Assembly: GCF_030732065.1 (NCBI RefSeq)
Contig: NZ_JAVBHX010000014.1
Span: 1 to 53,932 of the forward strand
Length of the DNA stretch: 53,932 nt
Direction: 5' to 3'
Source: Oceanimonas aquatica
GTDB taxonomy: Bacteria > Pseudomonadota > Gammaproteobacteria > Enterobacterales > Aeromonadaceae
The position numbers and the translations under genes were made by a program. The notes beneath the pieces are model-generated. The model was not told the DNA's origin. It saw only the letters and a program-made list of their open reading frames with translations, and made no database searches. Positions 10,651-13,999 of the stretch are shown here, one piece after another. Each line of letters begins with the position of its first letter. The first letter of the stretch is position 1.

Positions 10651-11139
10651 TTACTGCTCGGGCAGTGGAGTCATGCCGTTAAGCGGGCATTGTTGCAGCA
10701 GGGAGGAGAGGCTGGTGCCACAGGGCAGGATCAGGCCGGGAGCCAGATCCGCCAGCGGGTAGAGTACGAATTCCCTTTGCTTCATGCCGTAGTGGGGCAC
10801 GGTCAGGCGCTCGTCGTCGATGCGCTGCTCGCCATAGAGCAGCAGGTCGAGATCGAGCGCCCGGGGGCCCCAGCGTTCGTCCTTGCGTACCCGGCCTTCC
10901 CGCTGCTCGATGTCCTGCAGGGCGTCGAGCAGGGCGAGGGGGGCCAGGGTGGTGTCAAACACCGACACGCCGTTGATGTAGTCCGGCTGATCTGCCGGGC
11001 CCATGGGCTTGCTGCAATACAGCGCTGAGTGACGCAGGCTGCCGGGGGCAGCCAGTGCCTCCAGCGCCTGCTGGGCGGCCCGAATGCGCGCCAGCGGCTC
11101 ATTCAGGTTGGCGCCCAGGGCCACGTAGACGGTGGTCAC
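10651..11139 (-). CDS. folK: 2-amino-4-hydroxy-6-hydroxymethyldihydropteridine pyrophosphokinase
   Basis: A 162-residue HPPK (E. coli 159). It moves pyrophosphate from ATP to the pterin before FolP acts in folate synthesis. It begins [12 protein letters not shown] and has the [13 protein letters not shown] block that carries the two metal-binding aspartates. The start overlaps the pcnB stop by four bases, so translation is likely coupled. Confidence 0.96.
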
Positions 11140-12515
11140 GACTCTTTTCTCCGGCGCGGCCGACGACGGGGGCGCTTGCGGGGTTTGCGCTCGCCACGTT
11201 CGTCGTTATCCCGCTGGTTGTTGCGGCTCAGCTGCTGGCGGTCTACGGGGTTGGCCTGCTGAAACTCGGTCCACCATTCGGCCAGCTCCTTCAGGCGCGG
11301 GTCCAGCTCGGCCCGCAGCAGCAGGAAGTCGTAGCCGGCGCGAAACTTGGGATGCTCCAGCAGGCGGAAGGGGCGCTTGCCGGCGCGCTTGGTGAGCCGG
11401 TCCTGCAACTGCCAGATGTCGCGCACCACGGTACTGAAGCGGCGTGGAATGGCCACGCTTTTCACCTGGCGGCCAATCACTTCGTCGGCGGCCAGCATAA
11501 AGGCGTCGTGGTAGCCCAGGCCGCCTTCGTTGACGAATTCCTGGGTGCGGGTTTCCACCGGGCCCCACAGCAGGGCGGCGTAGAGGAAGGCGGGGGTCAC
11601 CCGCAGATCCTGGGCAATGCGGTCATCGGTGTTGGCCAGGGCCAGCTCAATGAAGCGGCCGTAGCGGTTATTGCCCCGCCCCATGACCTCGGCGGCTTCC
11701 GGGAACAACGGCGCGAACAGGCCGTAGTGCTGCAGCTGGCGATAGGTTTCCACGCCCTGGCCGGCGAGCAGCAGCTTGAGGGTTTCCTCAAACAGCCGGG
11801 CCGGAGGAATATCGGCCAGCAGCGGCGCCAGCTCCTTGATGGGCGCTTCGGTACGGGGGCTGATGGACAGCCCCAGCTTGGCGGAGAAACGCACCGCCCG
11901 CAGCATTCGCACCGGGTCTTCCCGGTAGCGGGTTTCCGGATCCCCAATCAGCTCCAGGCGACGGGCCTCCAGATCCTTCAGGCCGCCGGCAAAGCCGTGC
12001 ACGGTGAAGTCGGCGATGTTGTAGTAGAGGGCGTTGACGGTAAAGTCGCGGCGCTCGGCGTCTTCCTCTATGGTGCCGTAGACGTTGTCGCGCAGCAGCA
12101 TGCCTTCCTTGGACTGGGAGGAAAGGTGCTTGCTGTTATTGACGCTGTGGTGGTGGCCACGGAAGGTGGCCACCTCGATCACATCACGGCCGAACAGCAC
12201 ATGGGCCAGGCGAAAACGGCGTCCCACCAGACGGCAGTTGCTGAACAGCCCCTTGATTTGCTCGGGCGTGGCGTTGGTGGCCACGTCAAAGTCCTTGGGC
12301 TGGCGCCCCAGCAGCAGGTCGCGCACGCCACCACCCACCAGGTAGGCCTCATAGCCTCCCTTGTTCAGGCGGTAGAGCACCTTGAGGGCGTTTTCACTGA
12401 TTTGTCGGCGCGAAATACCGTGCTGGTCGCGCGTCAGTACCACGGGTTGCAAGGGCAACGCCTCCTGTTGTCGGGTCAGCAGCTTTTTACAAAAGCCGGC
12501 AATCTGGGAAAAAAT
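11136..12515 (-). CDS. pcnB: Poly(A) polymerase I, predicted AUU start codon
   Basis: Poly(A) polymerase I adds 3' A tails that speed RNA decay. From the predicted ATT at 12515-12513 it has 459 residues (E. coli 465, which also starts at AUU). Features: [11 protein letters not shown], the catalytic [20 protein letters not shown], and a basic C-terminal tail ([11 protein letters not shown]). The first ordinary start codon in frame is a TTG at 12458, but the 19 residues before it ([15 protein letters not shown] ...) match the E. coli N-terminus I-F-T-R-V-A-N-F-C-R-K-V-L-S-R without gaps. GAGGTG lies four bases before ATT. Between ATT and the upstream in-frame stop at 12557 there is no ATG, GTG or TTG. 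Confidence 0.93.
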
Positions 12516-12519
12516 GGGA

Positions 12520-12525
12520 CACCTC
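12520..12525 (-). promoter_or_regulatory. Shine-Dalgarno that fixes the AUU start of pcnB
   Basis: On the minus strand GAGGTG is followed by TCCC and then ATT. GAGGTG pairs fully with the 16S rRNA 3' end. It is the reason to accept a non-standard start here. Confidence 0.8.
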
Positions 12526-12554: not shown

Positions 12555-13478
12555 CTATGATAACGCAGGGCGCTGAAAATGCGAACTGTCGGCGTAATCC
12601 AGCTCAATCTGTGGTCCTTTGGGCACTCGTTCCAGCCGCCAGTTGGGTACCGCCCAGGCCAGTAATTCCGCCGCTCCGGCACCAAACAGCTCCGCCGGTG
12701 GCTGCTGACCGAGAAAGGCCAGGGCCTGCCACAGGGCGGGGCCCGGCGCCCGGTTGTCGAGCGGTGGTGCATGGTTTTGTTTCGACAGCTTGTGGCCGTC
12801 GTGCACCGCCAGTGGCAGGTGCAGCCAGGCCGGCTCGGGGGCCTTCAGCAGCCGGAAAAGCGCAATCTGGCGTACCGTGGGCTCCAGCAGATCGGCACCG
12901 CGCACCACTTCGGTGATGCCGGCATCCATGTCGTCGATCACCACCGCCAGGTTGTAGGCATAGAGACCATCGCGGCGGCGCACGATAAAGTCTTCTTCCG
13001 CCAGCCGTTCGGCCACGCACACTTCGCCCTGCAGCCGATCGTGAAAGTGATATACAGGCGCCGTCATTTTCAGCCGCACGGCGGCGCCTTCGGCGGGCAG
13101 GCCAAGGTTGCGGCAGTGACCGGTATACAGACCGCCGCGGGCAGCAATCTGTTTGCGGGTGCAGTGGCAGTGGTAGGTCAGACCGCGGCGGGTCCAGTGC
13201 TCCAGAATTTCCTGGTAACGACCGTGGCGCCGGCTTTGATACACCAGCTCGCCATCCCAGTGCAGGCCAAACGCCTCCAGGGTGCGCAGTATGTCGTCGG
13301 CGGCACCGGGCACTTCCCGGGGCGGATCCAGATCTTCAACGCGCACCCGCCATCGCCCCGCCTGGCTGCGAGCCTGCAGGTAACTGCCAAGAGCGGCAAT
13401 CAGGGAGCCAAAATGAAGGGGACCGCTGGGGGAGGGAGCAAAGCGCCCTGTGTAGCGGTCGGGCGCAGTGGTGTTCAT
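12555..13478 (-). CDS. gluQ: Glutamyl-Q tRNA(Asp) synthetase
   Basis: A 307-residue truncated GluRS paralogue (E. coli GluQ/YadB 298) that attaches glutamate to queuosine in tRNA-Asp. It has the class I motif as [13 protein letters not shown] near residues 13-25, a zinc-site region H-C-H-C-T-R-K, and the second class I motif as H-K-L-S-K-Q-N. It lacks the anticodon-binding domain of true GluRS. It sits 15 bases after dksA, the usual dksA-gluQ pairing, and 39 bases before the predicted pcnB start. Confidence 0.96.
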
Positions 13479-13493: not shown

Positions 13494-13946
13494 TCAGTAA
13501 CCGGCCATCTGCTTTTCCTTGATCTCGGCCAGGGTCTTGCAGTCGATGCACAGGTCGGCGGTGGGGCGGGCTTCCAGACGGCGAATGCCGATTTCCACGC
13601 CGCAGTGCTCGCAAAAGCCGAAGTCGTCGTCTTCGATTTTCTGCAGGGTCTTTTCGATCTTTTTGATCAGTTTGCGTTCCCGGTCCCGGGCGCGCAGTTC
13701 AAGGGCGAACTCTTCTTCCTGAGCGGCCCGGTCAACCGGGTCGGGGAAGTTGGCCGCTTCGTCCTTCATGTGGCCCACGGTACGATCCACTTCTTCGCGC
13801 AATTGATTGCGCCAGGCGCCCAGAATCTTGCGGAAGTGCGTTTTCTGCTCTTCGTTCATGTATTCTTCGTCGGGCTTGGCCTGGTAGGGCTCAACACCGG
13901 CAATAGCCAGAATACCGAGAGATTTTTTGGTTTCGACTGCTGGCAT
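13494..13946 (-). CDS. dksA: RNA polymerase-binding transcription factor DksA
   Basis: A 150-residue DksA (E. coli 151) that binds the secondary channel of RNA polymerase and works with ppGpp in the stringent response. The coiled-coil tip has both functional aspartates in F-P-D-P-V-D-R (D69 and D72). The zinc finger has all four cysteines (112, 115, 133, 136) in F-C-E-H-C-G and L-C-I-D-C-K, so this is the zinc-dependent form. The start is the ATG at 13946 behind AGGAG; 11 upstream codons of the frame are unused. It is first in the run leading to gluQ and pcnB. Confidence 0.98.
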
Positions 13947-13999
13947 TCCGTATCTCCTAAAAAGCAAATATTGCGCCAACCAAATTTGAGAAGCGGCTA

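Follow-up and report, generated by a model that had tools for sequence, protein, structure and literature searches.

The window, by which we mean the whole stretch of 53,932 nucleotides of Oceanimonas aquatica DNA that was analysed, carries on its minus strand the gene for poly(A) polymerase I, pcnB, which occupies positions 11136..12515 when read from an ATT codon (459 codons plus the stop). The gene was identified by its match to the NCBIfam model TIGR01942 (541 bits, cut-off 305.65); the match of the protein to NF008634 reaches 635.8 bits, below that model's cut-off of 702. Upstream on the same strand lies gluQRS (12555..13478), whose TAG (12557-12555) is the in-frame stop preceding pcnB, and the pcnB frame is open from this TAG to its own stop at 11136. 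Downstream, folK (10651..11139, minus strand) begins with a GTG that overlaps the pcnB stop in the tetranucleotide GTGA at 11136-11139, which suggests coupled translation. The gene order is thus gluQRS-pcnB-folK, and NCBIfam matches place dksA further upstream of gluQRS; the mechanically called dksA frame (13494-13979) starts at a TTG, and an internal ATG (MPAVETKK) resembles the real start. Among named genomes, the closest relatives are three of Oceanimonas, with 92-96% identity at the protein level.

A sequence-only reading of this DNA had proposed that pcnB opens at ATT in the arrangement GAGGTG-N4-ATT, and this arrangement is present on the minus strand: the Shine-Dalgarno sequence GAGGTG (12525-12520) is followed by the spacer TCCC and by ATT at 12515-12513, with TTT as the next codon. 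As that reading also held, no in-frame ATG, GTG or TTG lies between the ATT and the upstream stop at 12557, and a start at one of these codons for a longer PcnB is thereby ruled out in the window. The first 15 residues were said to align without gaps to the N-terminus of E. coli PcnB; compared with E. coli HS, in which these residues are IFTRVANFCRKVLSR (locus L172), the alignment is indeed gap-free and 8 of the 15 positions are identical. The window and E. coli share the orthologous gene, GAGGTG-N4-ATT, the N-terminal block and the order gluQRS-pcnB-folK. Three features make it well supported, as judged from sequence, that the window gene is a further case of the known E. coli type: PcnB is orthologous and lies in the same neighbourhood, its AUU occupies the homologous place behind a ribosome site, with no usual start upstream, and the site is conserved in relatives (described below). 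The prediction that gene finders will mis-call such genes is borne out in part: a mechanical rule restricted to ATG, GTG and TTG calls the TTG at 12458, but the RefSeq annotation of pcnB in E. coli HS begins at the ATT (position 1104 of L172). Of 5426 E. coli genomes, 5374 gave a match, and 5367 of these are at least 99% identical in the pcnB start region.

According to PMC9764084, AUU together with a poor ribosome site keeps the level of E. coli pcnB low; the statements on the E. coli AUU start and on IF3 trace to Binns and Masters 2002 and Butler 1987, by way of PMC9764084 and PMC1780047. The sequence-only reading had paired pcnB with infC, the gene for IF3, as AUU-start genes. This holds for pcnB, which has ATT, but not for infC in the genome of the window, which starts with ATA (L111 1465-1467, contig C18), preceded by GGAGG and standing two codons past an in-frame TAG. 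Across the family, infC has ATA at the start in 22 of the 23 readable loci and ATT-ATA in the remaining one. The two genes therefore share a start of the isoleucine-codon family, a strong ribosome site and a close in-frame stop, and differ in that infC has ATA, not ATT, in this genome and family; in E. coli the infC start is AUU, according to cited work. A comparable situation is described in PMC13009471 for cvfC1 and ccpN of Staphylococcus aureus, with non-canonical AUU/AUA starts described as conserved and with an extended ribosome site, whose output in RPMI medium is about 10% of that from AUG; these cases share with pcnB a conserved non-AUG start with a ribosome site, but concern other genes in another phylum.

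To assess conservation within the family, 61 genomes were searched, all of which gave a pcnB match, and the start region was read in 52 (the nine left out are eight of the Aeromonas group and G216, which has only a fragment). GAGGTG-N4 followed by an isoleucine codon was found in all 52 genomes read, with ATT in 51 and ATA in one (L235). A rule that chooses by ribosome-site strength bypasses this ATT in 25 of 32 family loci: it scores an internal TTG, equivalent to 12452 of the window, above ATT in 23/23 loci of the Oceanimonas group in the family sample (-10.3 vs -7.2 kcal/mol in the window), and narrowly prefers an internal ATG in two Aeromonas-group loci. In two pcnB loci of the Aeromonas group, L233 and L234, an in-frame ATG inside the gene has a ribosome site of roughly the same strength as that of the ATT.

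Across the order Enterobacterales we sampled 99 genomes, of which 97 had a match and 90 were read, the seven others being weak matches (E 5e-46 or worse). A blind rule that considers only pairing with the 16S tail and spacing picks an isoleucine codon in 57 of the 90 loci (49 ATT, 8 ATC) and a usual start in nine, three of which are the internal TTG of the Oceanimonas group; it finds no site in 24. Within the 5' regions of the order, 40 of 168 ATT codons have a ribosome site, compared with 142 of 3553 non-start-like codons (P = 2.5e-18; as related genomes are not independent, this and the other P values overstate the case and are guides only). The corresponding counts are 9/86 for ATC, 7/57 for TTG and 0/52 for ATG. 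Thus, the ribosome site at ATT exceeds chance across the order. ATT is also favoured over the other isoleucine codons, a test that the sequence-only reading had proposed: among the 56 order loci with an isoleucine site and enough internal isoleucine codons, 49 have ATT at the start, with 27.5 expected. The 80 named loci, rich in Alteromonas, speak against this preference: the rule chose ATT in 26, ATC in 27, ATA in one, a usual start in 13 and none in 13; all 13 usual starts belong to the Oceanimonas/Zobellella/Oceanisphaera group, and 24 of the 27 ATC picks adjoin another isoleucine codon, which leaves the exact start ambiguous. A naive test that asks for the absence of ATG, GTG and TTG before residue 34 gave no signal in 30 long order loci (0/30 for pcnB, 0/30 for gluQ, 0/30 for folK and 0/6 for dksA), because codons of the pcnB linker include GTG and TTG; with the anchor moved to residue 32, 7 of 90 order loci have no usual start. 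Four genomes of the order sample (G019, G043, G063, G081) have weak PcnB/CCA-like matches in stop-free open frames of 1153-2908 residues.

Some lineages of the order depart from AUU. Five f8 genomes and two small f19 genomes have an ATG (an apparent start in f8) and lack the N-terminal helix described below; in four of five f21 genomes, an ATG precedes the aligned position by one codon; in f22, three of four have a changed N-terminus with ATG; and in three f15 loci GTG is found at the site or next to it. In around twelve other loci the start is ambiguous. Loss of AUU is therefore possible, and it seems to have been accompanied by loss of the helix in f8, f22 and the two f19 genomes; inspected by eye, the other two frames of the ATG lineages f22 and f8 revealed no frame-shifted helix. 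Eight loci with an apparent ATG start and no amphipathic helix (L132, L135, L144, L145 and L146, together with L107, L121 and L122) represent a natural double loss.

Beyond the order, 79 of 80 loci sampled from the class were usable, and folK, readable in 36 of them, served as a control; it is a weak control for ribosome sites, since most folK loci have none (21/36 outgroup and 22/30 order loci). In 11 of 79 outgroup pcnB loci the stretch from the upstream stop to the conserved RxxH core is free of ATG, GTG and TTG, compared with 0 of 36 for folK. The best ribosome site belongs to an isoleucine codon in 25 of the 79 pcnB loci and to a usual start in nine, with no site in 45; the folK counts are five and 10 of 36. 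In several outgroup loci, an ATT, ATC or ATA codon some 11 codons ahead of the core carries a ribosome site, and at positions -10 to -12, which were selected after seeing the data, such a site accompanies 14 of 30 isoleucine codons and 27 of 194 codons that are neither isoleucine nor a usual start (P = 1e-4), and none of 13 usual starts. Over the whole 5' region the excess for ATT is modest (17/128 vs 173/2611, P = 0.006), with none for ATC (2/86) or ATA (2/61) and ATG at background (4/54). One outgroup family, f109, was selected for the lack of a usual start in its first locus, and its 20 genomes gave 19 readable loci; all 19 have an isoleucine codon at the equivalent place (17 ATT, 2 ATC), one codon nearer the core in one locus. 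Eight of these sites follow AGGTGA and three follow AGGTAA, and 10 of the 19 loci lack any usual start. The same family search for G112 returned G112 alone. These isoleucine sites suggest that the non-AUG start of pcnB probably predates the order; however, ATG is present in the region in 45 of 79 outgroup loci, and the start used there is ambiguous.

The segment that an AUU start would add is a 14-residue cationic amphipathic helix (12474..12515, minus strand), with a moment of 0.63 when the start is read as methionine (shuffle P = 0.0015). Among the 62 order loci with an isoleucine site, the moment exceeds that of the locus's own shuffles (P < 0.05) in 58, and the mean net charge of the first 14 residues is +3.4; these residues differ in sequence between loci, and the cationic amphipathic pattern is kept. 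Such a helix would be expected to touch the inner membrane. The match to the crystallised E. coli PcnB chains begins only at residue 25 or 26 of the window protein.

Within the pcnB frame, an internal Shine-Dalgarno sequence AGGAGG (12461..12466, minus strand) precedes two TTG codons. That at residue 20 (12456..12458), which the sequence-only reading had named, is only 2 bases past AGGAGG and therefore too close to use it, and it is kept in 19 of 23 relatives. The TTG at residue 22 (12450..12452), which that reading had not mentioned, follows at a normal spacing of 8 bases and is a candidate second start. We compared 23 Oceanimonas/Zobellella/Oceanisphaera genomes, with pcnB coding-sequence identities of 68-95%. 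The TTG at 12452 and the following CAA CCC are identical in all 23, and this TTG is the sole invariant codon among 47 conserved leucine columns, TTG being 9.7% of leucine codons. In four relatives with an insertion, AGGAG and the TTG at 12452 stay together and the TTG at 12458 is lost. Of the 10,996 internal codons in 35 genes of the window, two are in-frame start codons with a site as strong as AGGAGG-TTG, so that the chance of one within 22 codons is about 0.004. In sequence, the gene shows what a dual-start gene would have: a second in-frame start codon at a suitable distance from a ribosome site, conserved more strongly than coding alone requires. The site was seen in the Oceanimonas/Zobellella/Oceanisphaera group only; unlike the window gene, E. 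coli HS pcnB has no internal AGGAGG-N8-TTG, as the rule detects no ribosome site in front of a usual start codon in that region.

The start region as a whole is also constrained. In the 23 genomes, a single codon is used in 11 of 16 conserved columns of residues 1-25, compared with 7 of 246 beyond residue 50. The ratio of synonymous divergence in the first 25 codons to that in the rest is 0.39 for pcnB, against a control median of 0.88 (21 entries that passed the filters, from 35 window genes, one of them pcnB itself counted from the TTG, at 0.61); only the dksA frame lies lower (0.25), and its called start is probably too far upstream. In Aeromonas pcnB, the first 26 codons rank lowest among 470 windows; when the Oceanimonas group was ranked by itself, 86 of 570 windows scored no higher than the first 26 codons, but this test was spoiled by gapped tail columns and set aside. 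The proposal that the rare start is maintained by selection is upheld by the 52 of 52 family genomes, by the preference for ATT in the order sample and by this strong synonymous constraint.

How the conserved segment is to be read depends on which codons initiate. We consider it highly probable that translation of pcnB begins at the AUU of 12515 under the guidance of GAGGTG and yields an N-terminal cationic amphipathic helix followed by the catalytic core; the site, its conservation, the absence of a usual upstream start and the helix pattern can all be read directly from the DNA. The isoleucine could instead be an internal residue of a longer protein starting upstream, as an in-frame ATG upstream in some Aeromonas loci might suggest, but the window has no ATG, GTG or TTG there, so that another rare start codon would be needed; the stop is only six codons upstream in several relatives, and 35 of the 57 order loci with a chosen isoleucine codon have no usual start upstream in the open frame. 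We regard such a longer protein as extremely improbable. The strong synonymous constraint would also be expected if the conserved stretch were an RNA structure, but the predicted fold over the start is no more stable than shuffles (z = 0.92; one sequence), and we rejected this candidate as very unlikely.

The internal UUG bears on two further explanations. Because the site at 12452 is the stronger ribosome site and has the more usual start codon, UUG might be the sole start in the Oceanimonas group, and AUU with the segment that follows would then be a remnant or a control region that is not translated. We think this improbable: GAGGTG and ATT are invariant in the 23 group genomes, the segment has few amino-acid replacements and keeps the helix pattern, and the homologue of the AUU is the annotated start of E. 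coli PcnB. Alternatively, both starts may be used, AUU for a scarce helix-bearing form and AGGAGG-UUG for a more plentiful one that begins near the conserved core. The invariance of the TTG among genomes in which pcnB identity falls to 68%, its retention with AGGAG where an insertion intervenes and the low chance expectation all favour two forms, as do outgroup PcnB proteins, some of which appear to start at the equivalent place, and the point at which the match to the crystallised chains begins. On the other side, codons 1-25 are constrained as a whole, so that the TTG may belong to one RNA-level signal rather than be a start, and the site was seen in the one group only. The arguments for and against two forms seem to us about evenly balanced.

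In the preferred reading, GAGGTG, four bases upstream, would direct initiation at the AUU of 12515. If AUU initiates weakly here and IF3 discriminates against it, as E. coli suggests, the long form of PcnB would be made at a low rate; by the same analogy, AUU would hold pcnB expression low under the restraint of IF3. The internal AGGAGG-N8-UUG at 12452 would perhaps act as a second start, at about even odds, giving a short form without the helix. A wider account, which we offer tentatively and hold somewhat less probable than its opposite, is that pcnB is non-AUG by descent in much of Gammaproteobacteria: a start at AUU, AUC or AUA would be older than the Enterobacterales and would have been retained ever since, originally at the margin of the catalytic core and, in those lineages that gained a membrane helix, at the beginning of that helix, and the Oceanimonas group would have added UUG at the old place, so as to make both a helix-bearing and a helix-less enzyme. 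Neither a survey of pcnB start codons nor a description of the extent of AUU conservation and of the internal UUG was found in the literature searched; the 2002 paper may already note the conservation.

If pcnB keeps AUU across the order and beyond, the weakness of its start codon would be a long-lived control of RNA tailing, and the link to IF3 would become testable in many species. Such starts tend to be mentioned as peculiarities of two genes of E. coli. Annotation limited to ATG, GTG and TTG drops a conserved amphipathic helix from PcnB. The internal AGGAGG-N8-TTG could supply PcnB without AUU, and if this UUG start is real, the view that the enzyme is held low by AUU alone fails in the Oceanimonas group; it would let cells make a helix-less form, and the question of membrane versus cytoplasmic polyadenylation would become testable.
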